Shown piece after piece: positions 1-63,009 of a DNA stretch of 64,000 nucleotides. The DNA is taken from positions 14,112,984-14,176,983 of the forward strand of contig BTRK01000005.1 of NCBI GenBank assembly GCA_036245805.1, in the 5' to 3' direction. Both the position numbers and the translations under genes were made by a program. The notes below the pieces were generated by a model. It did not search any database, was not told the origin of the DNA, and saw only the letters and a list, made by a program, of their open reading frames with translations. The stretch's first letter is position 1; each line of letters starts with the position of its first letter. The stretch is from Pristionchus mayeri. Its lineage: Eukaryota; Nematoda; Chromadorea; Rhabditida; Neodiplogasteridae.

Positions 1-2
1 TC

Positions 3-28940: not shown

Positions 28941-31900
28941 ATGAAACACCTGTTGCTCTTGTCCATTTCGTCTGCAGCCTATAGCCAATGTAAGTACAGC
29001 TTGTGCATTCCCTTTCCAAGCTTATTTTCAGATCAACGGGTGTGCCCCCAGCAGCAGACATCAGCAGAAGAGATTTGCGTCGACATTTTTACGGATTCGA
29101 ACGGGGCTTTTGATTTCAATGCGGCGAGACTTTGATCTTTGACCTCCTTTCACGTAGAGCGAAATTTTAAAAACCATTTCATCCTCTCTCACTTCCGGTA
29201 GAGAGACTGGAAGGAATGAACAGAATGGCTGTCAAGTTTCTAATATTATTTATTTTCAGGCACAGCAAGGATGTCTACACAATACCCTGTCTGGAGACAA
29301 ACTTTTGACGATATTGGACAGTGAGGTGTGTGAGTTGTTGACACTCGTTAATTGTATCGCCGTAGGATACTAACTATCCGGATTCTAAGTAAAAGAGTAC
29401 GCTTCTCCAGATTTATCATTGTAGATTAGCACACTGACAAAATCCAACAAAAGTCCAGGGAAGCGGTACTTTTTTATTCTTGTCTGAAATTGTGTGATAC
29501 AACAATGACCCCTAGTTGCGTTTGAAGATGTAATTAAAGGAAACTTCGAGATACAACCAAGTGGTGCTTACAGTAGTGGAATCTTCTTTCGCGCCCTGAA
29601 TTCAATTGTAGATTTATTTCAGCAAAATTACTTCATTGTAAGCCAAGCGAAACTACACACCCAGGAGACCCTCTTCTGGCTCGGTCTGCACTGTTACAAA
29701 GGTTCACTCTTGTTTTAAACGTATTCGCATCAAAATTATAATATAAATAATGTTGTGCTTATCAGGAAAACTGTTCTGGACGGAAGACTGTGCAGTTGAA
29801 TACACCAACTTCAATGATAGTAAGTGAGAAAAGAAATTATTAAAATGGTCGGAAAACATTTCAAGCGAAATCTTGAGCTATATCTCGCAATCGAACAACA
29901 TAAGTGCGCAATGAGCGTGTAGCAAACACTAAAGTTTACCGTCAAAATATAATTCGTTTTCAGCAACTGATGCATCAACCATTTGCTCCATGACCAATAA
30001 TAATGCTCACGTCGTAATCGACATCAAGGATGGACATTGGAAGATCGGCGATCCTGCATTTGTTTCACAGACAATCTTCTGCTCTCATAGGTACATGAAC
30101 ATATCTTAGAACCGTTAAACCGAGTGAAACACTCCACATTATGCGCATTAAATGTGCAACTCTTCGAGTTAGGCATATCAAGTGCACTTTTATCAATCAC
30201 ATTTTTCAGTACTGCGCTGGACATCTGCCATGAAGCAGATCCCGAGTAAGCGATTACTGGTTGACAAAAGCAATACAAATTATCCACAATTATATAGAGA
30301 TAACGAAATTTCGGATCCGTGAAACCCTTATTAACTCAAATCTTAACGAGTGAAATCAACTTCAGCAATGTCTTCATAATGCAAATCACCGAGTTGATTA
30401 TCCTCGCAGTCTCACTGCTCGTTGTCGTCGTGATTACAATTGTTGGTGAGCTGCATTTTCGAAATATTAAAAAAAATCGCATCATGAAAAATGTTGATAA
30501 GCACATTCTTGTTGGTCAGCGATTGAACAACTATTGGAGGTTAGTTTTTAAAACGACAAGGGATCTCTAAAAATTAAGAGAAGAAAAAATTGCAGTTTGC
30601 GGATGCGTCGCAATGGTAAGGAAACAGCAGATTGAAAAAGAGAAGAAGAAAGCTGAGGACGATCGGATGAAGCAAGAGTGTGTGAGTGAAACTTTTAAAC
30701 CAAAGACTTGGGTTGGCAATACGAGGGGAGGTTACGAGCTCGATATCCTTCCCTACTCTTATTTCGCAATCCAAGAAGGGGGGGGCGTAGCGTCTCGTAA
30801 TCTCCCCTCATATTGCCAACTCTATCAAAGAACAAATCAAAAATGCCGTGGGACTAATTGATGACGCTCGCAATGTGCCTGTAACCGACAGAGTGTGAGA
30901 AAGCTGGATGAATTATCTTGCCATCGCATTCTCTCGCTGACTGGGACATGTTCAGTGACCTAAATTAACACCAAAGCTTATCAAAATCACTAAATACTGC
31001 ACATAGTCAGTCATGTACATATACAAGAATACGATATCATAGTCTAATTGAAGGAAATTTCCAGGCCGAATATCTGCAGAAACAAAATGTTGACTTCAAC
31101 GTCGAGGAAGGACAATACAAATTCAAGGTTAGAACCAAGATTGGGACTTCCTCTCATTTTGTTGCATTCATACTGCTCTTGTGGTGCTCTATGTCGGATG
31201 AGAACTATCGCGTCATGCTGAATTATATGACGCCCTAGTTCTCATCCGGCCAAGAGCTGATTTTAGTGAGCTTAATAGCGAGGTGAAAATAAGACCATGA
31301 TAATCAATATTATCCAGTCACGAAATGCACAGACCCGATTTCATGCAACTATTCCAGACAGACAAAGCGACTGCTTTCGCGGCTGGAGGTGCTGAACTCG
31401 GCATGGCGATAGAGCGCACGCCGAGCAATCGCTACACTGCATTCCCGAGAGCGGAGGGAGCCGGGAAGGAGTGCGTTATTCTCGTTCCCTAAAAGTTTTT
31501 AATGCAATTACAAGCATACATTAACTAGCTTTTTAAGAAAAAAACTTTTAGTTTCGATGAGTGGGAGATCGACCGTCGTCACGTCAGCATTGACTACACT
31601 ACGAAGCTCGGACAGGGAGCATTCGGGAGTGTTTACTTGGGTATGTTCTCGTTTTTTTCTTCTTCCTTTCTTGTTGCGTAATTAATTGGATCAGTGAGAA
31701 AATGCTGCATTTTGAATGTACATTCCTTAGAGATCATAGGGATCACTGGATCAGTTATCCTCGTGCAATATCGAAAAGTATGCATTCCATCTCCATTTCC
31801 CGATTTTAGTGGTAATTTTTTCTTCGTAATTATCAGAAGCAATGAAATAAAGCCGAAAACAAACTTAACCTCGGATTTGATCCAGCTGCAATACTCACTT

Positions 31901-34900
31901 CTAATCAGGCATCATCGACAACTCGAACATTCCCTCTACAACTGGCAAGTCGATCATCGAGCAATCGGCACTCAAGAAGGACAACAATGCAGCGGCCATC
32001 AAGATGCTGCATGGTATTCATTAGATTATGAAATACGAGTCATCGTCCGTCCATTAATTTCCACTACTCTTCCATGCCTCTTCTACTCTTACAGGCCGAG
32101 AGAGTGTGAAATGAAGAGGCGATTGCCTGGATTTTGAGCATGAGCATGCAAGCAATTCCGAAATGCGTTGAAATCAATATCTATACCTATATATGAAAGG
32201 AATCGCGAGAAAATCACCCATTTGAGGGGTTTCGCGGCGGTAAAAACAAACGTCATCCAATCCTGATCTAAACTGGGTGTAAGGTATTTCGGATGATGCT
32301 CTTTCAAACTGCGTCGTCAGAATTTTGATAACTGCCGTCACCTTCGAGATTCAGAAGGCCAAACGTGGGACAATCACTTTTTAGGGGTCAAATCGAGCCA
32401 ACTTAAACGGTCATAAGTCGGTTTGAAATTTAGATAGAAACTCGTTCTTTGTTTAGAAAGAAATCTGAGAACATTCTCTATAACTTTTCTGTTGAACATG
32501 TCATTCGTTGTGTACATCCCAATTCGGGGAGGTCGGGTCGACCAAAAATTCAGGAAATCGGAAAAACTCGGCTGAATGAATACGCGCGATTGGTAGACAT
32601 TATGAGTGACTAAGTTGACGCTAAAAATTAGCCAAATCGAAGGTAGTAAAAAAAATGCGCGTGACTTTTTGTCCGGCGACGTCAGAATGAGTCCCAGACC
32701 AAAGTACCCTGGTAGGTCCAACTGGCAGCTATTAGACTTAAACCTGTCCAAAATCATCCAAAACGACATTTAGAATTGTTTCCAAGCAAACTACAGAACT
32801 CCCATTGGGCACAAATTATGACCGGTCCAGAAAATTGAAATCGATTTTCAGATCCTTCTCAACCTGGGAGCTTGGCCCATATGTGCCAAATCTCATTGTA
32901 ATAAAGTACTAATGTCCCTCTAAACGTATTGGAGAAAGGGCTCTCCAATACATGCGAATTTTCGTATCAGGGATCCAAGAAAAGGCGCAAAACTGCACTT
33001 CAGGTCATCATCGTCCTAGGGACCCGATTCATAGCTAGGAATGTAGAGCACGATGAGCTAAACATTTCGCGCTTTTTTCCGTCGTTTTTGCTAACTTGTA
33101 GGCACTGTAACTCGCTTCTACGAAAAGATAGAGACTCACTTTCAACAGATGACATGTTGGTTAAGGTGCAAAAGCGTACACCAAAATAGATATACTGGTC
33201 CCCAAAAATCGTTAAAAATACTGGTCCCAATCAGAAAGAGCTTGTTCAGGCAGTTGTTGTTCGTGTAGAAGCGAATAAGCATGTACTGGGATAGGAACGA
33301 TGGCAGATCATCTGTTTCGAAGGAGGTATTATTCTTGCTCATCTTTTTCGCTGTTCTCCCCTTGTGCTCTCAATGCCTCTTCGAGTTTGACTCCAGTCCC
33401 GTAGGATGAGGTCACGAAATTGAACGGCATGAAGCTCTAGAAGAGGCTTTCATAGCCTCTTCTAGAGCTGAGCCGAATCGCGCGAGTATCCTCTTTTCTT
33501 ACACTCGCCATCCATTCTTTTAGAACGTTGCTTCTCCCCTAAATTCAATTCATTGTATAAAAACAAAGAAAACATAGCTAAAATACAAAAAAATCAAGGA
33601 CCAGTATATTTTCAACATTTGGACCAGCATTTTTATGCTGTGTATTTGGGACCAGTATATTTTCAAAAATTGGGACCAGTATACTTATGTCAGGACCAGT
33701 ATTTATATGGGTCCGAGCGGGACCAGTATTTTTTATTTTGGGACCAGTATTTCTTCTGGGACCAGTATATCTATTTTGGTGTACGCTTTTGCACCTTAAC
33801 CAACATGTCATCTGTTGAAAGTGAGTCTCTATCTTTTCGTAGAAGCGAGTTACAGTGCCTAGAAGTTAGCAAAAACGACGGAAAAAGCGCGAAATGTTTA
33901 GCTCATCGTGCGCAACATTCCTAGCTATGAATAGGGTCCCTAGGACAATGATGAGCTGAAGTGCAGTTTTGCGCCTTTTCTTGGATCCCTGATACGAAAA
34001 TTTGCATGTATAGGTGAGCCCTTTCTCCAATACGTTTAGAGGGACATTAGTATCAGGTTGTAGGGAAAGTCTTTGTCACTGGATTTGTTTTCACACTGCT
34101 CGCCACAAATGCACTTTGATTTTCCCATGTTCCTGGTGAATAACAATCAGTGATGGGACTTTATAGTAAACAACTCCCCATTCCCTTTCCTTCAGTCAAG
34201 CTCTAGTATTAGGTTGTTGCAAAAGTCCTGTGGTTTTTTGTGTCCGCACTTTGAACAATCATAACTCGCGTGTCTCAAATCTTCATCGCCAACAAACATA
34301 TCATTGTTTAGGGGTATGCTTGAACTTTGTTCACATATATTTCAATCAAACCGATCTTGCCATCAACGCAAGAAATTATGATTTACCCAAATGCAAACAG
34401 TTGACCAAATTTTGCTTTAAATTTATTTCCCTATATATTTGGAAGGAAAATCCAAGAAACAACTTCATATTGTTAGCTGAGAAGTAGCATTGATATTCTT
34501 TCAAAAAATAGGTTAGACCTGTCATGTGAGTGGGTTTGAACCAAATTACATGATTGCAAAAATATGAGCAGACCTCGGCTGCATGTGACTTTTACCTTCT
34601 TTTCTGAATGGAAGACCAAGCATACAGGCTCCGTCATCTGTGCGCTGTATGCACCCGAGAAGAGGCTATATTCTCATAAAAAATATTGGAGCTTGCTTAT
34701 TCTCCGTTTCAGAAAATTTGAATTTCTTATTTTTCAGAAATATGCAAAATCAACACCGAAATGCAACAATGTAGTCATGTCTAGATCAATGCATTCCTCG
34801 AAAGGGTGTAACTTCCAGCATCCATGAGAAAAAGTGTTTATAGGGTAAAGGTTGGGGCTTCATATAACCACCATAGTTTGAGCATTCATGCTTCAGAGAA

Positions 34901-37900
34901 AACAGAAAATTGAGAAATGTTGCGTTTTCGATGGATGAATTTTCGTAATTTTAACTGGATCCTGTTCTCGCCTCTCTGATTGGGCAATGCTGATAGGGTG
35001 CGCATATGAAAGAGTATGCAAGGCCTCATTAGTAATCAATATCCCGAAGTTCATCTATCAATCCAACAAGAAGATGGAAGGCAAAATTTCAAAATTCCAC
35101 AGGACTTCTGCAACAACCTAATAGATCAACGATTTGTGTTCCTGGTGCCACACACTTCCGACATGTTTTGATTTACCTCTCTCTATTCTACACCACGATG
35201 AAGGATTTGGAGACCCTACTGAAGAATGTTTATGACATACATTCCCCTCTACAACACCTTCAGGAATTGGATCCACTTTTCCCTCAATGAATGGGGTCGA
35301 TCTGGGAGACCGCGTTAGTTACATTTTGAAACTTTGTAGAAAGCTGCTGAAACGGACCCATTTCAAATTGCTAGTGAAATGACTATTGCACTTAGAGTCC
35401 ACCATAGCACTGTCAGAGAAGGCTTGAGATCTCTTGAAATGAGGAAATATATAGGTCGATTCATATCCAATTATCTGAGCCAAGCCAGCCGAGACCGTCG
35501 AGTCGATGATTTCATTACTCTCCTCATTCTCCGAGGTGGGGTTCGATGGCTGGAACGGCTCATAACGGGGAATGAGACGTGGGTCCTCTACGATAACAAC
35601 CACATAAGAACCCAGAGGGTTGGAGAAAGAGACACTCCACAGGATGTCTCCAAACTTGACCCGCACCCCGAGAAAAAGAAGCTGTCCATGTGGTTGGGAG
35701 TGGACGGCGTGTTCTACTCGGAGCTACTCCCTGAAGGCATGGCAATCATCGGGGGCAAGTACGTCCCACAACTACAGAATTTTAAGTTCGAAGTCGATCG
35801 TTCAATCGAAAAGGGCAAAAAAAGTGAATAATCAGTAAAATAGCCCTAGTCCCTAGGTCTCCAATCAAATCAAGCAGGAACTGGCTGGATACAGATGGAT
35901 GGTTCTCCATTACCCCCCGTATTCTACTGACTTGGCCCCTTCCAATTAGTGGCTTTTTGCAGACCTGGCCCATGCCGTTCAAGGTAGGGTTTCAATTCAC
36001 GTGGAAGTCTCGAGGTTGAACTCGAACAATACTTTCATTCACACCAACGCGGGTTCTAAAGGGAGGGGATCCATACATTGCAGGTACGTTGGGCACATAT
36101 TTACAATAATGAGGACAAGTATAATTGAACTCATGATTTCCCTTTGCCCAAGAAATAACGTTTTGAAAAAGTGACAAAGACTTTCCCTACAACCTAATAC
36201 TTCATTACAAAGAGATTTGGCACATATGAGCCAAGCTCCCAGGTTGAGAAAGATCTGAAAATCGATTTTCAATTTTCTGGTCCAGTCGTAATTTGTCCCC
36301 AATGGGAGTTCTGTATTTTGCTCGGAAACAATTCTAAAAGTCGTTTTGGATTATTTTGGACAGGTTTGAGTCTAATAGCTGCCAGTTTGACCTACCAGGG
36401 TACTTTGGTCTGGGACCCATTCTGACGTCGCCGGACAAAAAGTCACGCCCATTTTTTTATCCCCTTCGATTTGGCTAATTTTTGGCGTCAACTTAGTCAC
36501 TCATACTGTCTACCAATCGCGCGTATTCATTCAGCCGAGTTTTTCCGATTTCCAGAATTTTTGGTCGACCCGACCTCCCCGAACTGGGATGTACACAACG
36601 AATGACATGTTCAACAGAAAAGTTATAGAGAATGTTCTCAGATTTCTTTCTAAACAAAGAACGAGTTTCTATCTAAATATTAAACCGACTTGTGACCGTT
36701 TAAGTGGGCTCGATTTCACCCCTAAAAAGTGAGTGTCCCAAGTTTGGCCTTCTGAATCTCGAAGATGACGGCAGATATCAAAATTCTGACGACGCAGTTT
36801 GAAAGAGCATGATCCGAAATACCTTAAACCAAGTTTAGATCTGGATAGGATGATGTTGTGTTTTCCGCCGCGGAGAAGGTGATTCTCTCGTGATGTCTCT
36901 CATATAAAGCGCTATGTGATTCCGTCTGTCCGGATCATAGGTGTCCACGCCGGCGGCGAGGGGGGGTACTGCGCAGGGCCCCACTGTGGGGCCCTGCGCA
37001 GTACCCCCCTCGCCGCCATTCCTGGACACATATGGTCCGGATTGCGAAACAGTTGCGAAACGGTTACGAAATGGGGAGGGAGAGAGATCGCGCGTCAACA
37101 AGTTGCGAAACGAGTGATTGCGAAACCTACTCCGCTAGGACGAGGCACCCCGCCGAAGGCGTGGGGCAGCCGGAATAGTAATTAATAATTATTTAAATAA
37201 TAATTTAGAATCCGCTGACAAGCTGCAGCAGATGCAGTTCTTCGAGGAGATCGATCTCATGAAGCGACTGGGATACCACGAGAGACTTGGTAATGGAGAA
37301 ATTAATCGTAGTGTTTTTAGTGTTCAATCCTCATAGTGCTCTACCATTGGTCTGATCGGAGAGACATAATACTGAATTAACAGACCATTTCTAGCGAAGC
37401 CGTCCATGTCTCCGGACCAATACTAATATATTATCAGGTTGATGCAAAAGTTTCTTTCCAAAATTAATTCCGGAGTTTATATCTTGCGTAGCTCATGAGT
37501 AAACCTCATATGGGGTTTGCTATTATTTTAGTGGATCTATACTATACAAATCGCCCATATGATACAGAACCATTGTTCCTCTCAAGAGCCGCACACTAAG
37601 TGCTGATCTCGAAATTTCATCGACGAAATCGGTCTTTTCCTCCTCATACGATTTATGCGAGATTACGGAGGTACCATTTCAAGGGTTCAGTGGAAGCAAC
37701 AGCTTCTAAATATTAGTTTTCCAAAAGACCGACAGTGACATGCCTTGAAATGAAAGTTTATGGGTGTTTTTTTTCGACGAAAACAGGTATTTTGCAAATT
37801 TTCGGATAACATTATTTTTCCGACGATCGACATCAGACCGATTCGATTTAAACTGATGGTTGTGGTACACCAATACTGCGTCAAATACTACCAGAAGGGT

Positions 37901-40900
37901 TTTTGGCACAAGTTAAGCATTAGCGAGAAAACTTGAAAAATACCTTGGAAAGAAACTTTTGCATCAACCTAATACAATCAATGAAAATTAAATTATTTGC
38001 AGTGAACATGCTGGCATGCGCCACTCAATGTGAGCCGGCGATGCTCATATTCGAATATTGCGCACACGGAGACCTGCTGAACTACATGAGGGAGCGGTAA
38101 GTTCCCGTTCACAACCTTCAAAAACTGAATCACTCTCTTCATTTCCCGTAATCTGGCTGACTAGCTGACCGATGAGAGTGGGCAAGAAATGTCGAAAATG
38201 ACCCTCAGCATTTGGAAAATATTTAAAGTTCGAAATTCGAATGATCACATATTAACATTCTCTCTCGACTAGCTGCGCTGTGAGAAAATGAAGAGATAAT
38301 TACCCGAGACCATAGTACGCATGCAATGCCGCCATTCTTGAACATGTGGAACAAAATGCCGATCAAAAGCGTCTATTTTCCCTCTATTTGGATAAATCGC
38401 ATTCATTCGTCAGGAGATAATCAAATGCTATGCTAATCGTGAACAGTCGGGCACAAATAAAAGCACGACGCGAAAATATTTCTGCTATTTTGATAAATCG
38501 CTTTAATCGCTCATATCAGGAGGGAGATAATGCTGGGCGCAGCAGAGGCCATCTCTTCCATGGATCGATCAAAGATCATCACACAGAAGCAACAATTGAT
38601 GTTTTGCGTCCAGATCGCCTATGGAATGGTGAGTTATAAGTATTTTTCTGAAAGTTTCAATTTTCTAATACGTTTCACAATTCTGGTTAAGAAGAGCGAT
38701 TTATAATTTTGATAATCCCAATGTCATTTCGTTGTAATAATGTTTCAAAAAAGTTTCATATTTGCACTCTGCATTTAAGCATAGATGTGCTGCACCTAAG
38801 GAACAGTTAAAAAGCAGAACGAGTTGTGATGAATTGTGATTGCTGTGAAAAAATGTCAGGAATACCTGAGCCAGCGCGGATTCGTGCACAGAGACATTGC
38901 CGCGAGGAATATTCTCGTAGATCAGGTATTATCACCGTTTCCACTTGACTATTCATGATTCTATCATGTGGACTTGGTGAACTTTGTAGGGGTGATTTTG
39001 AAAAAAAACACAATATTTTCCAGCACGAAAGCTGCAAGATCGGCGATTTCGGACTGTGTCGCGAGGTGGAGAAGGAGGACGAGCACTACCATTCTAGGGT
39101 GAAAGCATTTCTTCTAGCATAGATCTGTAATTACTTTTCAATTCCCGCCTGACAATCTACAGAATTATTTAGTACGAATGAGAAGTTTAGCTTCCTTCTT
39201 ATCAAACACCTTATCTTCATCGGTATTCACATTTTACAATAGATGAAGAATCCTAAACGATATAAAACACACAATCATGCATACAGGGTGGCCGCCTTCC
39301 ACTGAAGTGGATGTCGCCCGAGGCAATCGAGCGATACGATTTCTCCATCGCGAGTGATGTGTACGTTTCCAGTTTGACATTTATTGTGCTCCTCAATGTT
39401 CTCTGCGTCTTCAAACGAAGGAGAAATGCTTCTCTGTAGTTCTACGAAACTCGAAATAACTTTCGAGAAGATCACCTTTCAGTTGGGCATTCGGTGTGCT
39501 TCTCTTCGAGATCATCACATTGGGCGGTAATCCCTACCCGGACTGGCCCGCCGCCGAGGTTCTATTAATATTTTATATTGTTTTCTCCTCGTTGAGCTGC
39601 TGTTATCTGAATCCCAACTGGTGAAGCATATCTAGTCGAAGGGAAATTAAATTTGCGAAACGACTTGTCAACTGTCAATTCAGATTCTCAATCGACTCAA
39701 GCGCGGTCGTCGAATGGATCGACCTGATAATTGCACTGATCACATGCAAGTTCTAAATCGTATTTCTCAAATAATTATATTATTTTGAAAAATTTACATC
39801 TAAAAATATACAAAAAAATGCAGGTTCACCGTGATGAATTCGTGCTGGAAGCTGCTGCCTGACGATCGTCCCTCGTTCTCCGAACTGAGAATGAAGATGG
39901 GTATCGCGCTGGAAGAGGTGTGCCATTTCTATTCGTCGTTAGGTCGGATGATCACCGTCGAAACTTTCCGGAGGAAAGCCAACAATAGTATTCTTCTGAA
40001 ATATGTTCGCAGAAGACTTATTGACAATGAGAACAAGCTGTGATAATCCTATTGAATGCTACTTTTTTGCCATTCGGAACGTTATCATCCGACCTAGTGC
40101 CGCTATTCGCATTATCGATTTACACAGTATGAGTTTCTAGGTATGATGCAAGAGAGATAATGCCAGGAGGTTAGGGCGTGACTCATAATAGGGGAGAAAT
40201 GGTAATAGAAGGGGGAGGGCACATTTCTCCCGTTTTTCAGTTCTAATTTCCAAGATATGATCTATCCCAGATAAAAGATAAGAGATGATATCTTCCGCTT
40301 ATCCAGTTCCAGCGCTATGTATTTGCAATGCAGAATGATCAAAAGTCGCCCACATCTTCTTTTATTCCACTCTATCAATTCCATTTCTCCATTTCTTAGT
40401 GTCTACTTAGCAAGGGGAACGTAGGAATTGAGGAAAGAAAACAGAGAATATGATTTATCGGAGAATATTTATCCATCGGTGAAAAGAACACCGTCAAGGA
40501 AGGGACACGAGGCCGGTCAATTCTAAATACCAGATATGAAACAATTGAGAACTAAGTGTCATTCGTTACAATCAACTTCAGTCCGGGAGAATAGAGTCAT
40601 GGAATCGATGGGCGGGTGACGAGAAACTCTAGTCGAGAAAGGCAAAGAATGCAGGAGATGCTCTGAAGTATTTCGGGCGTATGTCTTCAAAGTTATTCCG
40701 TGGAGGATCAGGCGCTGAATAGCGCATTTAAATAATAACTAATCCATAATCATTCGTATACCTTATCGTATACCTGCGAAGAGAGTCCGCCTGAGCGAAT
40801 GACATATTGATACGATCTTTAACATCACCAAGAACATCTTCCGTGGCACGGGAATGTAACGACGTCTAAATTGGTCTGGCGTGGTTTCATCGTCATTCCC

Positions 40901-50300: not shown

Positions 50301-53300
50301 AAAATATAAAAATGAGAGCAAAGCCTAATGGTTGTAACCACTCGGACATAATTATGCTAACAGCTCTCTTACTTCCTCGCATCATAGGTGGAGATGTCAG
50401 TGCCCTTATACGTCAGAATCTTTACTATAGCTTCATTGAAGTCGAGTGATATCTAGATATGATAGTGGTGTTGCGAGCATGCTTTCCATCGCTAGATGAT
50501 AGAGGAAATATCTATGAGATCCCAAAGAGAACCAATAAGTTGCAAATAGAATCCCAACTGCGTAACCATTTGCGAATATTCTGCGATCGAAACAGTGGTG
50601 AAGCGCGGGAAGAGCGGAAACCGACATTCCCCCCCCCAATGACCTACCAGTTATGGGGGCGGTCAAAATCACTTAGGGACATAACAGTAACTATCGTAAC
50701 ATATCGTATTCCTGGCTACGGTATATTCATTTGAGATTCATTTGAAAACTCATAAAATATTTGACCCACGAAACTGAATATGGAACTTCGATACGGTCGT
50801 TAGTTTATTGTCTTTCTCATGTTCCGGTCGGTTTTTGTCCACATGCCTCTTACGTCAAACCACAATTCAAAGCCTTTTTCTGAGCTAGTCGAGAACATGC
50901 TCGACTTATTTACAAGGCTGGAGTACCGTAATATTACAATACCCCATCACCTACCGTAACCAGATCACTGGGTCAAATATTAGAATTATCTGAATCACAA
51001 AATGATGACGACATAGTCATGGGGAATAACAATTTACGGCAGAATCAGTTTAACATCGAATGGGAATTTTTTTAAATATCAGGTTGGTGCAAAAGTCTTG
51101 CGGTTTTTTGTGTCCGTACTTTGAACTATCATAATTCTTTTGTCACAAACACAATGACTAACAAACGTAGCAGTGTTTAGAGGTATGTTTGTACTTTACG
51201 TCCATACATTTCAATCAATCCGATATTGCGATCAACGCGATAAATTATAATGAACACAATTGCGATTGATTCTCAAAATTTTGCATTGAATGTATTTTAC
51301 TAGATATTTGCTTGCAAAATTCTCGAAACCTGATAATACTAATGTCTGGGAAGTATCTCGTATACCCTTTCAAATAATATGTTTCAACTGTGTCTCGATT
51401 AAGATTGGACCGAATTTCATGCTATTGAAAAAATGCTGTCGATTCTGGTTACATGAAACTTGTTCAGATTTTTTGCATCGACGACCAGGCATATAGGCTC
51501 CACTATGAGTGCGCTTTATTCACCCACCAAGAGGCTTCATACACAGAAAAAATATTGGCGCCTTCATCTTTCTCGTTTCAGAAAATTTGAATTTCTAATT
51601 TTTCAAAAATATGCGAAATCAACATAAAAATTCAAAATGTAGTCATTTACAGTTCAATGCATTCCTCGAAAGGATGCAACTTCCATCACCCATGAAAAAA
51701 AGTATGTATAGGGTAAAGATGGGAGCTTAATATAACCACCAGGAGTTGAGCATTCATGCTTCAGAGGAAACAGAACATTGAGAAATGTGTCGTTTTCGAT
51801 GGATAAATTTTCGCAATTTTAACTTTATCCTGCTCTCGTCTCTCCGATTGGGCAATGCTGATACGGTGCGCATATGAAAGAGTATGCAAGGCCTCATTAG
51901 TAATTAGCATACGGAAGGTCATCGGTTAAACTGAAAGGAGGATGGAAGGCAAAATGTCAAAAAACCGCAAGACTTTTGCACCAACCTAATAATTGGGAAC
52001 TGAACCCAAGGAACTGAATCTGACCCAAGGAACTGGTTACGATTGATGATGGTGGTAATTTAGTAATGATTGAATACGGTAGTCCCAACTTGTAAAAAAG
52101 TCTCATAAGCGAGTTATGCTCTGTTGCCGTTTTGGTCGGTGCCCCTTTGTCCTTCATCCAGCTCAATACGTCATTAGCCGGCTTCTCAACGAAATGGGAA
52201 TGCCTAGGAAACCGATTAAGATTAGGGAAAATCGAAATCGTTGAAGAGTAAAACAAAATCAGCAAAGCAATTCGTATCTGAAAGGCGGAAAACGGACGAT
52301 CCACCCACAATAAACGCGAGCAACCGTTAGGCGAGAGCGAGAGCAGTCGAAATGATGAGAAAATGATCTCACGATCTCAATAAAATGGAAAGGAATAGTC
52401 AAAATCGAGCATTAACGCGACAATGCACATTCACTATCTCGGGTAATCGATCATTTTGCACGATTACCCGAGATAATTCTCCCTTTCATTCTTCATTCGC
52501 GGGTACCCGCGGTGTCGGGTAGTGTTGGATTTCGAACTCTACTCGTCACCAACGACCAGGGGGTCATGGTTCAAAATTGAGAATTTAAGTAAAAACCATG
52601 ATTAGATAAACACCAAATGACGAAGCCAATATATACCCATGTTACCGGGATACATTGGGTACAGGGGCATTTGAATCTCAATTGGTCACGGTGCTCTGTG
52701 CTTATCTAGCCATGAATATCAGCTCAAATTCACAATTTTGGACCATGATCCCCTGTTCGTTCGTGACGAGTAAAATTCATGATCGCATGGCAAGGAGATT
52801 TGTATATGTAATTGTAGAGTAGCACACATTAGTTACAATGATACAAATCCCAAGTGGCTAGGTTAACTTCCCATCAAACGGCGCTCCGTTGCACAAATGT
52901 CCTACCCCCATGTTACTCGCTATGGTGAGTAGAAGAGATCTATTGTGTCACGTTTTGGCCATCATATGATCAAAAAAGTCATGAATGGAGCACTATAATC
53001 TACAACGATGATCAGAAAATATTAGGAAATACACAACTTCAGTGTTTCCGCATACTTGGATGTGGATTGACGGGCCCGATTACGACCCGAGCGATGCATT
53101 TTTTGGCAGACAAGGAACGGGTCAGAATCGAAAACTATTCATAAATTCCGGAACTATGTCGGATGGTAACCTACTGGACGATAACCAAAAATGGACCCTT
53201 CTGTAGAGCTTTCGCATAATCATTTTTGACACATGGGGAACCTACTGTGAAAGTACTACAGAAGGGTCCATTTGTTAGTTATCATCCAGTAGGTTACCAT

Positions 53301-56300
53301 CCGACGGTGATCATCCGACCTAGTGGATAAATTCCATACGGCACTTATGCAGAATACAGGACCAAGGTAAGTTAGTCATTCGGACGTTACTCATCTAAGA
53401 TAAGGATCAAAACTAAATGGGGCTGAGTACTCCTCCCTAATTCTAACCATAGTTTACTGCAACATCCAAAAAGAAGGTACTACAGCAAGTCTATAGCATG
53501 TCTACCGTTAGTCTGCTTCTTCATCTACCGACTATTTCAGACTCCGAGTACTGCGATCGTTTCCAGCCTCCCTACGTCTTCGACAATTTCGGGACTTGGC
53601 AGGATCAAAGCAAGTACTTCGAGCAGAATCTCGTCGTGTGTGCGCAAAGGTTTGATGTATACACTACTTACTATGGTTGGCCAAACGATGTTGAGTTGTT
53701 AATCGTTACTTGCCTCTCTAACGCATATTGCGAAATTAGGGGAAGGGGGCAGCGAATAGCTACGCGGCACCGTATGGCCTACCCTATTATACTCCTCACG
53801 TAATATACTCCCAACTATAGTACTATACTCCTCACCTACTATACTCCCTACTATACTTCTCACATGGTCTACCCTACTATACTTACCATATGAACAAAAT
53901 CCTTCTGATATATACGCTTGTTACCACAGACATTTTTGCTTTCGATGCATATCTTTACTCTTATTTGGACCTGTTGTAAATGTGTTTCGGTAAAATACCA
54001 AATACAATTATTTATCACTTCAGACAGTAGTGCATAGGCTGAGATCCACCAATGGGGCCCAACCGGCAGATATCGCTTCGAAATATCTTTGCATTTTTCC
54101 AGACCGAGAGGCTACTCCCCGCCCGCTCCGATCAATTCACCCTGCATCGACGATTGGACACAACTGCCCGGAGGACAATGTTACCGACTGGTGAGAACCG
54201 ACTTCTCTTCTCACATACGCAATCGCTACGTACACAAATGTGACTGCGACATCGTTTTTATTTTTATTTATAGTCATTGTCAGAACAAAGTTCTTATCCA
54301 GACAAGCGAGTTCCAAGAGAATATTTACTCCGCGGAAATGGCATGCCGCAACAACGGAGGACATCTGCCATCTATCCACAGCGCAGAGGTTAGCTTTTTT
54401 TGTATCACAATATTTCATTCCGTACTGATACTGCAAGTTCATAAAATGACTCAATTTATTACAACTTTTATCTATATAATTTCACTATGATTTGAAGAGA
54501 AAACTGTTACAAAATATTCAGAAATGCGAATCCAATACGATTGCAGCAGACCAATATCATCCAGGGCTATCTAACCGGAAGGAAATATCAGAATACTCAG
54601 TTCTGGATCGGACTGTACTGCACATGGGACGGTATGTCTCATATTCGCACAACTACAGCACCTCCCATGCACTCGCCACTATAACACAGTGCAAGAGGTT
54701 AATGCCGCAAATCGTTTCTACGGAAACATGAGCAAGTTTCAAGCTGCGAAACATCGATTTTTCTCGAAAATGGTTCTCACCCGATCGGGTGGCCCGACTT
54801 CGAGAGTGAATGGTCGAGGGGCTCGACTGGACCGCCCGACTCAGCCCTAGTTGTCTGGCGAATGCATTAGAGCAATTCCAATGTCTTTCTTTCCATTGTC
54901 AATTCGGTGGAGAAATATAAGCTACCGGATGGTGAAGTTGTATTTTGCGCCTGTTAGTCATAATCCGCTGGCTCGATCACGCATGATGAATTTATGTTTC
55001 TGTGCTATTTCGTTTCGCTTATTTACTTTTTATGTTAGATTTCGAATACAAATTTTCATTTAAATGAAAATTTTTTACTACTAAAGTTGTAAATTGAAAA
55101 GCAAATAATAACCTCATCATGCGGGATCGAACCAGAGGCTTTTGTCAAACAGGTGCAAAACACAACCACTTCACCATGCGGTAGCTAGCAGTAGCGCACC
55201 AAAATGACAATGGAATGTAGGACGATGGAATTTCCCTAGTGAAATCACAAGACAAGTCGGGCCGAATCGGGCTTAGTCGGGCCGTGTCGGGCCAGTCGAG
55301 CCGCTCGACTCTTCACTCTCGATGTCGGGCCACGGGTTTCGAACCAACTCGGGTCAACATGCGATGTTTCCCGAGTCGGGCCCTCGAATACCGGCCTGGC
55401 TCGATTTTACCAACCGTAGGACACACTCTCTTTAAGTCGCGTGCTATCCCCCTTTCCCTGTGCTTTCCCTGATATGGCTCCAGTCAACTAGCTATAACTC
55501 GGTTCGGATGGAAGATATCAATGTGAAAATTTCGGAGCTTCTTATCGTTGTGCAGCTCTAGGTCATGAATATGACATCTTCAAAAAATGAATGTTGTCTT
55601 TACTCCTCCTTTAACTGGCCATCGACAACAACCATCCGTGCTCCATCTCAACGCAGGCGCAGTGAACGCAATGTATTTGCGATTCCTGGGTGATGAAAAA
55701 CCATATTGACGGACCAGCTCAAATTGGTCAACTTTATTTCCGTGTGAGAGAGAATTGTAAGATTCCTATCCTATCATCGTAGAAAAAATGCAAAAACATA
55801 TATATTCCGTCCGGGAACAATGCGAAGAACATGAAAATCGATATCTTGTTACTTGAAACTTGCTCGTATTTCCACAAAAGCGGCCCGAATGCCGCCTTGG
55901 CCGCATATGGGCAATGCGATTAGCATGTTATGTATTCCACACATGGAATTTGCATAAAATAAGTTCTAACAGAAGATTACGAGACAGTAATGGGCCGGAT
56001 CGGCAAGCGCATATGGAGTGACGGGTCGCCGTATGATGCTGATGGCTACACCAACTTTTTGTCGCCTGATGATGGTGAGAATGTATTGTCCTTAGAGTTC
56101 AGGAAAATTCATAGGTAACTGGGCAACGAACAACATATAAATGACGTTGGACTAATTTAAAAATGATCAAAAAATAAAGTTCGTCGCTGCCGGGAGTTGT
56201 TAGTAGCATCGGAAATTTTTAGTTTTTGACTATGATCTACGCTATTACTTCAGGGGCAAGAGAGCTATGAGCTGGTACAAAAATTTAGTTGAGATGCCAC

Positions 56301-59300
56301 AAAAAATGGAGAATGTTATGCATGATTTTTTTTCTATAAAGGATGCATGGTTTGTTTTCCAAAAAATGGTGATCGTTCATTGTACTTGTAGTTCATCGTT
56401 TATTTTCTAGTTTGTTAGCCAACAAATATGAACTAAAGACGAGCACAAATCGGCTTATTTTTAGATACGGACAGGTGTAATGTTGGCTTGGTCGACACAT
56501 TCGTCTACAATGGAGCCCTCAAAGGTGCGATACTAGCATTACTACGAACTTTATAATGGAGTGGAACTACATTAATCCCAGTTGATTCAAAAGTTAAATG
56601 TGTGGTAATGATAGTTCGGCCCTTTCCAAGCTCAAAAAACATTGGATTAGCCAGATAAAAGATGAGTTATTTCAGGTAAATGGCAGAAACAGAAGTCCAA
56701 CTGGACTGTGTTAACATTGATGTGCATTAGACCGTGAGTTTCAAAGAATCACGCTGGAAGAGCAGGCTCCAACCCAATCACAGACATTTCAGAGACCCCG
56801 AGCCCATACCATCCACTACACCCACAACTACCAAGAAAACCAGTAAATCCGAATACTGAATTCATTTAAATTGTATTTTTTCTCAGCAACAACGGCCCGA
56901 AGGACTACTCAGCCCATTGAAACCACAACCACATCTGTCGATGATGAAAGGAATTCTGATACGACTGATGACTATAGTAGGCCCTATGGAAGTAGAATGG
57001 TGCAATTGGTAGTATCTCAGCTGATCCAACTACTGAATCAGCCGACCATACTACCGAACACACAACCGTAGGTACTACGACGACTACCAGTGAGCCGACG
57101 ACAACCTCTCACATCAGTCGGTAATGCTCAACGACGATAAAAATATCACCTTTGATTTGAATATTTCGAAGTCAAATTTTCGTACATCTACAAAAATGTA
57201 ATATACTAAACAATTTTCAGGAAAACGTTTCCGGGGTGAGTAATACTAAGAAATTACTGAGGAAAAATGTTACTTTGGTGTTAACCCTCGCAGAAGCTGC
57301 AAATCCGTTATTTTCAGTCACGCGCTAACCCAACTCGAGCTGATTCTGATCATCATGCTCGCTTCGATTACTCTCACTGTAATCATCGTGATTATGCTAT
57401 ATTTTCTGTGCAAGCGGATCAGAAAAGAGCGAGTTCAGGAGATCGTCAGCAATGTGAGTGATTCTCTTTCGGAAAATTAAATTTAGTTGCATCACGAATA
57501 TGAAATATCCAATTACAGATGCAGAAATTTACAGATCTTTCTGAAAATTCGATTTTGATCGTGTCTTGAAGAAAAGAACAATAAATTAAAATACAACAAA
57601 ATCAATTTACAGATGCAAAAGCGCTTCTCCCGCTCGAACACGAACGCAATTGTTCGGTAACGAAATTCATTCTGTGTTGATAAAAAATTCTTTTAGAACG
57701 GACGAGTGGGAGATTAAGAGGCAGTTCGTTGGCATCGATTACAGTCGACAGTTGGGCCGAGGCGCATTTGGAAGCGTATATCTAGGTAACGATAAGGCCC
57801 GAAGGCGGTCAAAAGCATATCCGTTAATTCCAGGCAGAGTCTTCCCCGGGAACATCCCCGACATGGCAGTGCGAACTATTCTTCAGCTGAACACACTGAA
57901 GAAGGGCGACAACTTCGTAGCTGTGAAGATGCTTCATGGTTAGTTTTTTAAAGGATTAAAAAATTGAATGTTTAAAAAAATTGCAGAAACAGCCGATCGT
58001 CAGGCCTCTACTGAATTCATGGAAGAGATCGAGGTTATGAAGCAGATCGGATTCCATGAACGATTGGGTAAAGCTTATTGTTGTGAAATAACATAAACAC
58101 GGGAAAATAGTAGAAAACGGATATTTAACGGCCAAAAGACTAGTACAAAGTAGAGTACAAAGTACAGGTATATCGAAGAGATAATAAGGGAAACAAGGAT
58201 AATTCAAGGGGATCATTTTTAATAATTTCTTTGTTATTTAGTCAATTTGCTTGCCTGTGTGACAGAAACAGAGCCACTTCTTCTAATCGTCGAGTACTGT
58301 TCGAATGGAGATTTGCTCAAGTTTATGAGGGGAAGGTCTGTTGCTATTCTATTATGGGCCCTTTATGGTCGCAAAAAGCTGAGGGGTCACTCTTTTCATT
58401 TCCCGAACTCTCTCGACCGGTTAACCGGTGTCTAAATTACTGGGAAGACATATGTTTCTCAACATTTCGATTGACTTCTTGATCATACCCGATTTGTTTT
58501 ACTATCTACTCAGCATCGCGCAAGAACAAAATTAGAAGCTCAAAACTGCAGGAGGGCCTTCATGCTCAAGCTCAAGGACACAGTTGGTGACTCGATCGCC
58601 GGTCGTCACTCGATCATCACCCAACGACAACAGTTGATGTTCGGCATCCAGATCGCATATGGAATGGTTAGGATTTTAATGAACTTGTAATTGTTGGTCT
58701 CGATTGGCATGAGTGTTCATGAGGAATTGGAAAATTCGATTGTTTTTCATTGAAATGTGTGAAAAATCAATTTTTCGCAAATTTACCACAATAAATCCGT
58801 GATACCAACGAACTTTTTACTGTTTGGTTTGTTTTTAAGAGAAAACCCTAGCGTATAGTCTACACCACAACGTTAAGTTATAACTCAAGTCATTTTTACT
58901 CTGCTGCTCTTTTCAGGAATACCTATCACAGCGTGGCTTCGTCCATCGGGATCTCGCCGCGAGGAACATTCTCGTTGATCAGGTATTTATTTCACAATTA
59001 TTTTCAATAAATTGCGCATTTTAAAGAACGAAACGTGCAAGATTGGCGACTTCGGACTGTGCCGAAGGATGGGAGAAGATACAGAGCAATACATCTCTCG
59101 AGTGAGCATGGCAAAGCAATTCTTAGTTTTTTTTAAAAACCGATGTGAACACGTCATTATAGTACACACTAGCAACTAATTATTTATTATTAATTACTCA
59201 TTAATTACTATTGATCTCTTCCAGGGCGGTCGTCTACCGTGGAAGTGGATGGCTCCCGAGGCACTCGAACGCTTCTACTTCTCCGTTGAGAGTGATGTGT

Positions 59301-61270
59301 GAGTGAACTGACAGATAGAGAGATCCACAAATTTCATCAGCATCTAACATTTCAGTACTTCTTCAATCTAATATTTAAGGTTAAACATTCTTTGATTGGG
59401 ACCCATTTTCTTAATTTCCGAGAATGCTTCTAAATGAAGTTATTGCCTCTTATGGATCAATAATAAATCAAAATCACAGGTGGTCCTTCGGCGTTCTTCT
59501 CTTCGAGATAATAACACTCGGAGGCAATCCTTACCCGGACTGGCCAGCTGTCGAGGTACATCTCTTTTTGTTTGTTTTTGTTTGTTTTTCATTTTCAAAA
59601 ACGTCATCAAACTGCCATAATTCAGAATCGTATGATTTTACAGTGCAACATACTCAACTTTGAACTTAAATTTAAATTCAGTTGCTGCATCGACTGAAAA
59701 GCGGCGAGCGTATGCCAAAACCGGAAGGATGCGGAGCTGCTTAGTGAGCCCATTCTTGATCTTCACCAAATGACATCAAGTCATGAAATTTTACTTTGGC
59801 ATGCGGGAGTTCAAAGTCATTTGAAATGTTTATTTACTTTGATGGCTACTGAAACCCTCATTCTAGCTACGAGTTGATTATAACCACTCATACAGTGAGC
59901 GATTCGAGTGTGGAAGAGTCATATGATTGCCCGAATTACAAGCATTGTCACAAATACAATTCCAGCTACGAGCTCATGCTGAGTTGCTGGCGCGGGATTC
60001 CCATGCAAAGATTTTCCTTCGAAAAAATTCGACGGAAGCTGGCTCAAGAACTTGAAGAGGTCAGATAGAATGCTTTGAACGAAGTAAGAAAACGAAGTTT
60101 CAGACGCAAAGCGACGACTACTATTTGAAACTGGATGCTGCAGCTAAATATTATCAGGCAAGTTCAAATGTGCATTTGTTTAAGAGACCATCCGCGAGAG
60201 AACGTAACACCTGGGCAGGGGTCACGGATGGTGAAAAAATGAATTCCCGCCATATTTTTTTTCTTGAAGTAAGGGACCAAAGTTAGGAACGCAGGCACCA
60301 TTGACTAAAGTCTGAGGTCGATTTTGAAAAAGTTACAGTAACCCCTCATTTTTGGGGTCGAAAAAATTATTTTCCAAAATTCTTGAGTTTTATAGATTTT
60401 CTGGTGTATCGAGAAAAAGTCGGATTTGTTTTGATCATAGATTGCGTTTAAAGTGTTCAATGACTTTCAAAATTTGCACAAGAGTCATTATACAGCACAG
60501 GAACAAGTTCCTAATCAAAAACACACAATAATTCAAAATTTTAAAATTTTGATTTTCTCAGTCAAAATGATCAAAAAATCGAATTTTTAAAATTTTAAAA
60601 TTTTGGGTTTTTTTTTACTTGAATCTTGTTTATATACATCAGAATGACTCCTATGCAAAATTTGAAGGTCATTGGACACTTTAAACGCAATCTATGATCA
60701 AAACAAATCCGACTTTTTCTCGATTTTACCCCAACTGTCCAAGTTTGGATCCAAATTTATGAATGATAACCCATTTTGAAAATTCTGCAAAAATTTCTAT
60801 TGATTTAGCATATGATGAAGTATAGAAAAATGCTAAAAACCCAAAGACTTATTTTTCTAAGAAAAGTTATGTCCATTTATGTGTCATTTTGGATCGCAAA
60901 AATCGGTTTTTCGGCTCTAAGTTTTTTCTACCGCACTTATGATCATTCTAACATAGAAATTCGGAATCTACGCGTGGAAATACACCAGAAAATCTATAAA
61001 ACTCTAGAATTTTGGAAAATAATTTTTTCGACCCCAAAAATGAGGGGTTACTGTAACTTTTACAAAATCGACCTCAGACTTTAGTCAATGGTGCCTGCGT
61101 TCCTAACTTTGGTCCCTTACTTCAAGAAAAAAAATATGGCGGGAATTCATTTTTTCACCATCCGTGACCCCTTTCCGTTTTCTGGTGGACGATCTCTTAA
61201 AAAGGACTAGTATTTTTTAAAGGAAAGCATCGAATACGAGCGTAACGCGGCTCGCTTCAACTCCTTCTAA
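47303..61270 (+). CDS. Receptor tyrosine kinase with two extracellular C-type lectin-like domains
   Basis: 33 exons, 2,616 bases, in frame at every junction, 871 residues. Ectodomain: 47303-47412, 47512-47597, 47694-47754, 49507-49594, 49665-49724, 49799-49892, 53043-53120, 53541-53649, 54103-54190, 54302-54388, 54550-54631, 55988-56074, 56465-56524, 56676-56733, 56793-56842, 56887-56976, 57021-57120, 57221-57235. Membrane and kinase: 57318-57453, 57613-57656, 57697-57785, 57834-57938, 57987-58067, 58242-58335, 58552-58666, 58917-58982, 59027-59101, 59225-59298, 59480-59555, 59682-59743, 59966-60059, 60104-60157, 61223-61270. Signal peptide to about residue 24; CTLD1 86-229 (ends VVCAQR); CTLD2 235-383 (FWIGLYCTWD); Thr/Ser-rich stalk to about 463; membrane helix about 475-495; GRGAFG 548-553, Lys589, HRDLAARN from 699, DFG 719-721, APE 746-748. 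Expected to be catalytically active. The tail repeats DDYYLKL. The last intron has a GC donor. Confidence 0.85.
47807..49422. mobile_element. Long-arm foldback with TTAAGAGACC ends
   Basis: 1.6 kb, arms of about 700 bases, ends TTAAGAGACCGTCC and inverse, TA on both sides (47805-47806, 49423-49424). A shorter relative is at 60180-61200 in the same gene. It lies in intron 3 of the two-CTLD kinase. No transposase. Confidence 0.8.
49893..52912. repeat. Composite foldback region, 3 kb, in intron 6 of two-CTLD kinase
   Basis: Outer arms: GTAGGACATTTGCGCAACGG at 49893 against its near-inverse ending near 52912, pairing over about 150 bases. Inside are smaller inverted repeats (CGAGTTTCACTCGTCAC blocks; 52545-52775), GGGTAAT/ATTACCC hairpins and the mariner-type copy d. 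The left arm starts at the splice donor. Confidence 0.7.
51079..51989 (+). mobile_element. Mariner-type non-autonomous element, copy d (diverged)
   Basis: Ends TCAGGTTGGTGCAAAAGTCT and inverse; TA on both sides. Aligns along its length with copies a-c but with many substitutions, so it is an older insertion or a sister subfamily. Confidence 0.75.
53157..53326. repeat. Foldback of the GGATGGTAAC/CCTAGTG family
   Basis: TCGGATGGTAACCTACTGGA pairs with TCCAGTAGGTTACCATCCGA; inside, GGACCCTTCTGTAG pairs with CTACAGAAGGGTCC. It ends CCGACCTAGTG. Close kin at 62163-62333 and 62728-62910. Confidence 0.7.
53781..53890 (+). repeat. Short tandem repeat, CTACTATACTCCTCAC-like
   Basis: CTATTATACTCCTCAC, AGTACTATACTCCTCAC, TACTATACTTCTCAC and similar units repeat about six times. 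It lies between the exons of CTLD1 and CTLD2 in the two-CTLD kinase. Confidence 0.65.
54765..55350. repeat. Foldback of inverted tRNA-like units
   Basis: Outer arms hold GTGGCCCGACTTCGAGAGTG and TCGAGGGGCTCGACTGG with inverses at 55285-55340. On the minus strand, about 55188-55118, a tRNA-like unit shows TGGTGAAGTGGTTGTG (A-box) and GGTTCGATCCC (B-box); a decayed forward copy is at about 54905-54990. It lies in intron 11 of the two-CTLD kinase. Confidence 0.65.
60180..61200. mobile_element. Foldback with TTAAGAGACC ends, second member
   Basis: 1.0 kb; the terminal 150 bases resemble 47807-49422 (AAGTTAGGAACGCAGGCAC; GTCGATTTTGAAAAAGTTAC) but the middle differs. It fills the last intron of the two-CTLD kinase, between the DDYYLKL exon and the final exon. 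Confidence 0.75.
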
Positions 61271-61956: not shown

Positions 61957-63009
61957 ATGACTACTCAATTCGGTAGCTCCACGCTCCTTCTTCTCCTCTA
62001 CTCTCTGGTGATGAGCAGTGCATGCACCCAAGAGACTATCAACACATCAATATTTGGGTAGCGTTCGAAATTCAGGCCACATTTTCTCCATGCTGCTTAT
62101 AATCTCACTCATCGGACAGTTGAGATAGCGTGTAGAATGAAGATGATGACCCGAATTAAGGTCCCTAGATCTGACGATCACAATCGGATGATTACTTTCC
62201 GGATGATAACCAAAAATAGTACCCTTCTGCTGTATGCTCACAAAAGAAGAGAGACTTCTTTACAAGGGGTGAACATACTGTGGAAATTCTACAGGAGGGC
62301 ACCTTTTTCGGTTATCGCCCTACCTAGTCCCTAATTTAGCCTTATAGTCTGGGGACGTCACCAGCGTTATATGATGATCGATCGGATTATTCGACTACAC
62401 CCCAAACGAATGGCAAATTCGATCAGGATAGTGGTGAGGTTCCTTGCCGTTCATATTGTAGGGAATGTAAATTTGATCAATTACACCATGCAAAAATAAG
62501 AGCCCATCAAGTATCCAACTTTTGATTCCAGAGAATGTCTCTTCCTCAACAACCGATGATTACTTCCAGACTAGTACTGTGGATACCGAAAGGTGATTAC
62601 ATTTTAAAATAAATTTTAATTTAATACGCTGATCAGAATAGGCGGCGAATCAACAATTGCGCATTATCGGATTATTTAGTTTTGTCTGAATTTTTCTCTT
62701 GAATATTTCTTTCAATCAACTGTTACACCGGATGAGAACCGTCGGATGAGAACCCACTGGATGAGAACCTAAAAATGGACCCTTCTGTAGGACTTTCACA
62801 GACGCATTTTTTACACTTTGGGAACCTACTGCGCACATGCTGGAGAACGGTGATTTTTTTGGTTCTCATCCGGTGGGTTCTCATCCGACGGTTCTCATCC
62901 TACCTAGTGCCCAACTGCTAGGTATGCGTGTCCGGGAGGCTTCAAGCAACTCACAGTCGACTGGTGCTTCCATCTACGCTATGACACAGAGAATAAACTG
63001 AATTTCAAG
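61957..63009 (+). CDS. N-terminal part of a fourth CTLD gene (runs off the window)
   Basis: Exons 61957-62057 (signal peptide MTTQFGSSTLLLLLYSLVMS...), 62348-62433, 62532-62592 and 62922-63009 (YACPGGFKQLTVDWCFHLRY). These match exons 1-4 of the gene at 47303 one for one, with the same intron phases, so this is its tandem duplicate. Whether it has a second CTLD and a kinase cannot be seen. Foldbacks lie in introns 2 and 3, and the right end of the second stands about ten bases before the exon-4 acceptor. After 63009 only repeats are visible to the window end. Confidence 0.75.
62163..62333. repeat. Foldback of the CCTAGTG family
   Basis: ATGATAACCAAAAATAGTAC and AGTACCCTTCTGC pair loosely with the right half (GCACCTTTTTCGGTTATCG); ends CCCTACCTAGT. 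Intron 1 of the fourth CTLD gene. Confidence 0.55.
62728..62910. repeat. Foldback of the CCTAGTG family with repeated CGGATGAGAACC
   Basis: Left: GGATGAGAACC three times in a row; right: GGTTCTCATCC three times; centre GGACCCTTCTGTAG shared with 53157-53326. It ends CCTACCTAGTG, next to the acceptor of exon 4. Confidence 0.75.

Follow-up and report, generated by a model that had tools for sequence, protein, structure and literature searches.

A tandem array of predicted receptor tyrosine kinases with C-type lectin-like ectodomains in Pristionchus mayeri

Introduction

Can a sensor of the C-type lectin fold and the tyrosine kinase that would signal for it be one and the same protein in a nematode? 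This question is raised by a tandem array of four genes, A, C, B and D in this order and all on the forward strand, on contig C5 (BTRK01000005.1) of the 291-Mb Pristionchus mayeri genome. The stretch analyzed, here called the window, is 64,000 nucleotides long (positions 14,112,984 to 14,176,983 of the contig), and coordinates are given from its first letter unless a contig is named. An earlier note, made from the letters of the window, had read two of these genes as joining a signal peptide, one or two C-type lectin-like domains (CTLDs), a membrane helix and a complete tyrosine kinase in one frame. Pathogen recognition in nematodes is largely open, with few receptors named in the accessible part of a review (PMC12919956). 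A sensor and a kinase in one molecule make ligand hunting direct, since the receptor can be expressed and stimulated and its phosphotyrosine read.

Results

As read from the genomic exons, one reading frame runs from the CTLDs to the kinase in genes A, B and D (Table 1), where membrane-helix and juxtamembrane exons connect the two halves in phase, with canonical splice sites and no stop. The chains of A (one CTLD) and B (two) are open and splice-consistent, as the earlier note had claimed, and the two junctions it had singled out, 30090-31640 and 56733-57785, fall on exact exon edges in our models, which were rebuilt by hand from three-frame translations. Gene A has AG acceptors at all 22 introns, GT donors at 20 and GC donors at two (29123, GCG/GCGAGA; 39745, AT/GCAAGT), and no internal stop. 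Across the first GC donor FDFNA is spliced to AQQGC; the corresponding residues of P0009, the orthologue in P. pacificus, are LNFTEAQKYC.

The products of genes A, B and D are predicted receptor tyrosine kinases, with signal peptide, ectodomain, one membrane helix and tyrosine kinase in a single polypeptide. GxGxxG, the VAxK lysine, HRD and DFG are present in all three (in A, AAIK replaces VAVK and the lysine is kept), and HRDxAARN is found in all 29 family proteins inspected. The Pfam Lectin_C score of gene B is 61.9 bits over two stretches, its Pfam scores being those of an earlier 875-residue model with a longer stalk. Gene A reaches 19.3 bits, below the cut-off of 22.6, and its orthologue P0009 33.2 bits.

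The same CTLD-kinase joins occur in deposited proteins of P. mayeri (P0001, P0124), P. entomophagus (P0002) and P. pacificus (P0003, P0009), which carry the database names 'hypothetical' or 'C-type lectin'. P0001 (PMAYCL1PPCAC_22417) is the deposited model of gene B (97% protein match), and P0124, that of gene A, begins inside the CTLD. In P. pacificus the orthologous genes are A0A2A6BT77 and PRIPAC_85103. On comparison with P0009 and P0001, an earlier juxtamembrane exon of gene A (31318-31388) was dropped for a new one and an extra 15-base stalk exon was removed from the first model of gene B.

The nearest kinases without CTLDs among the matches listed are HIR-1 proteins from many nematodes. 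The name hir-1 is carried in the lists by P0012 of P. pacificus alone; the other HIR-1 rows were assigned by similarity, and we take P0147 (C. elegans, 903 residues) and P0138 (P. mayeri) to be HIR-1. In a careful, midpoint-rooted tree of 62 kinase rows, 26 Pristionchus kinases from P. fissidentatus, P. entomophagus, P. pacificus and P. mayeri form one clade (100/100). Four Pristionchus HIR-1 proteins adjoin it (99/99), and both lie within a larger nematode HIR-1 group (100/100) that takes in 18 of the 19 HIR-1 rows, with the Trichuris row outside; KIN-9-like kinases form a separate clade. The tree thus shows, for the sequences sampled, a single origin of the Pristionchus kinase group beside Pristionchus HIR-1. 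It shows the origin of the kinase group rather than of the fusion, because the 26 include partial models that lack an ectodomain. CTLDs are nevertheless found on both sides of the deepest split (P0008, P0130 and P0153 versus A, B and others), which suggests that CTLD capture preceded the spread of the family.

The tree rows were hand-picked from 196 listed proteins and hold 23 of the 29 Pristionchus non-HIR-1 kinases plus A, B and D; P0001, P0003, P0124, P0132, P0135 and P0177 were left out, and the set contains no KIN-16 or Sweet Tooth sequence. A quick tree had lost 14 rows to a motif cut, of which 13 were regained with another cut and P0178 was not; compared with it, the careful tree has P0054 added and Porites and Saccostrea removed. 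A KIN-16-like identity of the kinase, considered at first, was dropped on the placement of the array with HIR-1. In a PDB search with the gene B kinase, an entry labelled EGFR heads the matches listed, and the rest of them are labelled FGFR. The kinase tails of the array (42565-42690 and 60104-60157) hold acidic residues and YYLKL, in A as EDDYYLKL. An acidic YxxL motif is present in the tails of mammalian Dectin-1 and CLEC-2, and its spacing resembles that of the array tails. Because C. elegans HIR-1 has TEDYSYLKL, the motif of the array is likely ancestral.

Among the matches listed, 14 Pristionchus non-HIR-1 receptor kinases have at least 580 residues. Lectin_C is above the cut-off in nine (P0001 counted by its precomputed label) and just under it in two (22.4 and 21.0 bits); the remaining three have no Lectin_C at E 0.01, and two of these, P0008 and P0127, are CTLD-like by eye and entered our CTLD profile. 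All 24 family CTLDs compared carry a WIGL-like motif, and the alignment and Foldseek agree on a CTLD fold with the conserved cysteines. An AlphaFold2 model of P0001, built from a 12-row alignment, has poor overall confidence (mean predicted local distance difference test score, pLDDT, 60.2; predicted template modelling score 0.31) and a partial kinase, although both CTLDs lie mostly at pLDDT 70-94. The top PDB rows found with it by Foldseek are the tandem-CTLD endocytic receptors Endo180/uPARAP and mannose receptor, with E values down to 6.2e-16 and a template modelling (TM) score of at most 0.26, which is low because two domains were aligned simultaneously. The next rows are the CD23 lectin domain, with TM up to 0.77 by target length and a root mean square deviation of about 3 to 4. 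A sequence search of the PDB with CTLD2 of gene B gave weak matches (best E 2.7e-6), and the 60 best rows are, going by their names, presumably all CTLD proteins.

A six-frame search of the genome with the gene B kinase gave 160 matches at E 0.01. Among the matches listed there are at least 49 catalytic-loop places, in 22 groups within 60 kb, and 37 of the 49 sit in 10 groups of two or more. Gene D is the sole array member among the 49, A and B being additional; the places may include HIR-1 or other kinases, and some are near-identical copies, e.g. on C3. We scored 10-kb stretches upstream of ten such loci, a non-random sample of five high-ranking and five lower or odd ones, by summing per strand the CTLD profile matches of at least 6 bits, with the best of 11 controls (19.7 bits) as threshold. 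CTLD exons lie upstream on the kinase strand at seven of the ten (L019-L023, L025 and L028; 33 to 372 bits), as they do in the array (A 70, B 187 and D 190 bits); family proteins went into the profile, and the sampled loci possibly encode some of them. One stretch, L020 (C5:11726200-11736199), holds 24 CTLD profile matches with six C-terminal exon types, or about six CTLDs, and perhaps represents one many-domain receptor or more than one gene. The whole-genome search with Pfam Lectin_C (7 places at E 0.001, 112 at E 10, 116 candidates) represented the window by one gene C exon only and was weak because the CTLDs are divided among five or six small exons. In two further species, A-type and B-type genes have closely numbered tags (PENTCL1PPCAC_21503/21511 and PFISCL1PPCAC_18723/18726), which suggests that they adjoin there too.

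The two halves of these proteins have changed at very different rates. Between B and D, identity is 110/141 and 111/147 in the CTLDs, 61/61 in helix plus juxtamembrane and 318/327 in the kinase. Between A and its orthologue P0009 it is 46/130 in the CTLD and 286/318 in the kinase, and between B and P0002 81/134 and 74/144 in the CTLDs and 220/258 in the kinase. By the Nei-Gojobori method (853 codons, 500 bootstraps), the ratio of nonsynonymous to synonymous substitution rates (dN/dS) between B and D is 0.26 (0.19-0.35) in the ectodomain, 0.009 (0-0.037) in helix plus juxtamembrane and 0.024 (0.011-0.040) in the kinase. At the level of these substitutions a fast ectodomain and a slow kinase are evident, and dN/dS exceeds 1 in no B/D segment. 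The synonymous rate dS is 0.57, 0.80 and 0.54 in the same order, with overlapping bootstrap ranges. Given this even dS, both halves look equally old; both look retained, with the kinase almost frozen, a pattern that speaks indirectly for a single protein. The B/D likeness could have come from a recent gene conversion in the kinase half, a reading that we rejected because kinase dS is no lower. For gene C, dS against B and D is saturated or nearly so, and we therefore claim no rate.

The earlier note had placed a kinase-less CTLD gene between A and B, and gene C is such a gene. It has no kinase and ends in a hydrophobic tail with the stop directly after; this terminus resembles a shortened gene B membrane exon. 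The end itself (45491-45868) reads APNRHTEVMLVLIISLVSIASID followed by the stop, without a cytoplasmic tail, and is similar to a glycosylphosphatidylinositol-anchor signal. The product may be lipid-anchored, and it is possible that it acts as a decoy or co-receptor of the adjoining kinases.

The fourth gene, of which that note had seen a beginning, is present and is more than a beginning: gene D runs past the window to about 71875 (window coordinate) and encodes, in the next 8 kb, a complete two-CTLD kinase of 856 residues with CTLD1, CTLD2, stalk, helix and full kinase, the architecture of gene B. A tblastn search (E 0.01) of 50 kb on either side of the window gave no other match to A, B or C in the upstream flank, nor in the downstream flank beyond gene D; small divergent exons could escape such a search.

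Table 1. Exon models of the array in window coordinates
Feature	Position	Strand	Remarks
Gene A	28941-42690	+	23 exons, 22 introns, 631 residues, ending in a stop
A, exon 1, signal peptide	28941-28989	+	Continues in frame into CTLD exons
A, CTLD (five exons)	29032-29123, 29260-29325, 29623-29701, 29766-29819, 29964-30090	+	First donor GC
A, short stalk and membrane helix	30210-30445 (helix exon 30366-30445)	+	19-residue hydropathy peak 3.44
A, juxtamembrane exons	30596-30681, 31065-31127, 31358-31470	+	Stretch also in deposited protein P0124
A, tyrosine kinase and C-terminal tail (12 exons)	31552-42690 (stop 42688-42690)	+	PF07714, 292 bits
Gene C	43457-45868	+	10 exons, 9 GT-AG introns, 274 residues; signal peptide, one CTLD, Thr/Ser-rich stalk; Lectin_C 36.4 bits
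Gene B	47303-60157	+	31 exons, 857 residues up to last resolved exon; no stops; all 30 introns GT-AG
B, signal peptide and N-terminal exons	47303-47412, 47512-47597, 47694-47754	+	Identical to deposited P0001
B, CTLD1 (five exons)	49507-49594, 49665-49724, 49799-49892, 53043-53120, 53541-53649	+	Pfam: two Lectin_C stretches in B
B, CTLD2 (six exons)	54103-56733	+	Best Lectin_C stretch of gene B
B, Thr-rich stalk (three exons)	56793-56842, 56887-56976, 57021-57120	+	
B, membrane helix and juxtamembrane	57318-57453, 57613-57656	+	Hydropathy peak 3.08; identical in gene D protein (61/61)
B, tyrosine kinase (12 exons)	57697-60157	+	PF07714, 281 bits; residues past 60157 outside resolved model
Gene D, start	signal peptide 61957-62057; N-terminal exons 62348-62433, 62532-62592; first CTLD1 exon 62922-63009	+	

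Just upstream of gene A, a 346-residue open frame (26692-27729) with helix-turn-helix and sub-threshold DDE_3 matches is presumably a Tc1/mariner-like transposase. The introns of A and B hold long inverted repeats of 85-100% complementarity (34206-35123/40936-41837, 32242-32911/36195-36864 and 48105-48512/48736-49143), which are probably mobile elements; the first has another copy at about 15606-16526. Upstream of the array there are duplicated stretches of possible genes (1-10000, 14183-15612 and 17974-28083), in which 19396-19830 and 23295-23609 are 66.7% identical over 84 aligned residues. Eight tested fragments of these stretches gave no Pfam match, and Rfam gave nothing at gathering scores.

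Discussion

On balance, we consider it probable that the array encodes single-pass receptor kinases, with a CTLD sensor and a HIR-1-derived kinase, which most likely survey microbes or other environmental signals. We infer HIR-1-type dimerization, a ligand, phosphorylation, a downstream pathway and the surveillance job itself, and together these would work as follows. An extracellular ligand would bind the CTLD part and pair two chains; the paired HIR-1-type kinases would phosphorylate each other and the tail tyrosines; and phosphorylation would trigger a conserved output pathway. Copies that keep the kinase and diversify the sensor would give many inputs with one output, and the kinase-less gene C protein, with its hydrophobic end, could serve as co-receptor or decoy. 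Surveillance receptors would be expected to show this combination of a changing sensor and a constant output. More tentatively, one hir-1 duplicate that captured CTLDs could have given rise to dozens of one-piece surveillance receptors in Pristionchus, an animal counterpart of plant lectin receptor kinases with fast-changing sensors, nearly frozen kinase output and kinase-less partners, recognizing microbes or other organisms.

Several observations weigh against the surveillance reading or against parts of its basis. A fast ectodomain may also reflect relaxed constraint, which would look alike. Of the diversifying tandem array of one-piece receptors claimed in the earlier note, the tandem arrangement and the much faster change of the ectodomains hold; positive selection is not shown, because the ectodomain dN/dS of 0.26 is below 1. 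An immune role, as proposed in that note, is plausible. EPN and QPD are the calcium and sugar motif of C-type lectins, and neither they nor the near forms EPD and QPN occur in any of the 24 family CTLDs compared; two WND/FND strings (in gene A and in the first CTLD of P0003) lie at other alignment positions. Classical calcium-dependent sugar binding is therefore not predicted, and 'lectin' stands here for a fold rather than for a demonstrated function. Three of the ten sampled kinase loci fell short of the CTLD threshold (L024, 17.8 bits; L026, 17.3 bits; L027, none on the kinase strand). P0001 seems to switch to gene D at kinase exon 5, where GRHSVITQ of D follows gene B exons in place of the GRHSIITQ of B; it thus looks like a B/D chimera, and chimerism may affect the public annotation of this array. 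The PPCAC software used protein homology and transcriptome data for the Parapristionchus genome, according to the accessible part of PMC9526060. Since it uses homology, the deposited models are not independent of homology and may be partly based on it, and the joins are known here from genomic exons and protein models. Finally, the nearest relative, HIR-1, is cited in the part of PMC8959602 at hand for hypoxia and matrix injury, not for pathogen recognition.

The main rival to surveillance, which we regard as rather unlikely, is that the receptors keep the ancestral role of HIR-1 and sense the worm's own matrix, cuticle or tissue state (e.g. damage), so that the CTLDs would bind host molecules and the expansion would mirror the diversity of body surfaces and tissues. 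The nesting of the array kinase in HIR-1 is in its favor, as are the best Foldseek rows, which are fragments of Endo180/uPARAP and the mannose receptor; Endo180 binds matrix protein. In our judgement, however, so rapid a change of the ectodomain (46/130 between A orthologues) and so high a copy number would be unusual for housekeeping matrix receptors. Predation and self-recognition occur in Pristionchus, and receptors for worm-derived signals, serving self, kin or prey recognition, would fit the fast divergence of the ectodomain and the finding that, among the nematode matches listed, Pristionchus alone carries Lectin_C together with the kinase label. We nonetheless hold this account to be improbable.

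It is very improbable that CTLD genes and kinase genes are separate neighbors and their join an artefact of modelling. The joins are indeed known from genomic exons rather than from cDNA, and some introns are long (3150 bases within CTLD1 of gene B, 5195 bases interrupting the kinase of gene A). However, in A, B and D the helix exons join the halves in phase and at canonical splice sites, two further Pristionchus species have proteins with the same joins, and CTLD exons lie upstream on the kinase strand at seven of ten other kinase loci. Hardest of all to credit is that the array consists of decaying, non-functional copies. Repeats have invaded the introns, and many six-frame matches elsewhere hold stops, though these stops possibly lie in introns; yet A, B, C and D are open throughout, and the substitution pattern of B and D, with a kinase dN/dS of 0.024, contradicts decay for these two genes. 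Surveillance by receptors with a CTLD sensor and a HIR-1-derived kinase is thus the reading we prefer. The family is also a clean example of receptors that arose when a known kinase, HIR-1, acquired a different ectodomain; orthologues are present across a genus amenable to genetics, and slow kinase and fast sensor supply an internal contrast.

How does the array compare with known systems? The earlier note did not recall this architecture as a described system. This stands for nematodes in the papers that could be searched, and fails for the architecture as such, which has precedents in Hydra Sweet Tooth and in a coral protein (P0110). Our literature searches, to which subscription papers were mostly beyond reach, returned no paper on Pristionchus with receptor tyrosine kinase, C-type lectin and kinase together, and none on Pristionchus with hir-1. 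Pristionchus-specific expansions of both C-type lectins and kinases have been described (PMC9526060), and the accessible part of that account does not mention a CTLD-kinase fusion; a family of such fusions would feed both counts. The Pristionchus CTLD kinases are thus a genus-wide variant of a known architecture, the family itself being undescribed in searchable papers.

By kinase, the closest system is HIR-1: the array kinases branch inside the nematode HIR-1 group beside the Pristionchus copies, and the tail YLKL is common to both. The ectodomains differ. C. elegans P0147 lacks Lectin_C and has a weak match to fibronectin III (24.9 bits against a cut-off of 25), whereas the array proteins have CTLDs in place of this HIR-1-type ectodomain, so that the array genes are HIR-1 paralogues with another ectodomain and not HIR-1. 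Among nematode receptor kinases, the KIN-16 family is likewise partly clustered, and its members OLD-1 and FLOR-1 trigger the oomycete response in C. elegans, as described in the accessible text of PMC10523662, where the word 'lectin' is absent. The name KIN-16 is on no row in our two lists of 120 matches, in which many rows are unnamed. CLEC-27/35 and CLEC-26/36 of C. elegans are CTLD receptors to which the detection of oomycetes is attributed, and no kinase is mentioned for them in the part of PMC12919956 at hand.

By architecture, the closest system is Sweet Tooth of Hydra, which has CTLD-like domains outside and a tyrosine kinase inside in one protein (PMC3531485, seen in part). The array likewise carries CTLDs on a kinase, the two being compared by described architecture only. 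The placement of the Pristionchus kinases with HIR-1 points to an assembly independent of Sweet Tooth. P0110 of the coral Porites lobata has both Pfam domains, CTLD and tyrosine kinase, in one protein, and differs in that the quick tree places it apart from the nematode kinases, on a very long branch. Plant lectin receptor-like kinases, from the partial accounts available, offer an analogy only, in which a lectin-type sensor is fused to a kinase in large gene families.

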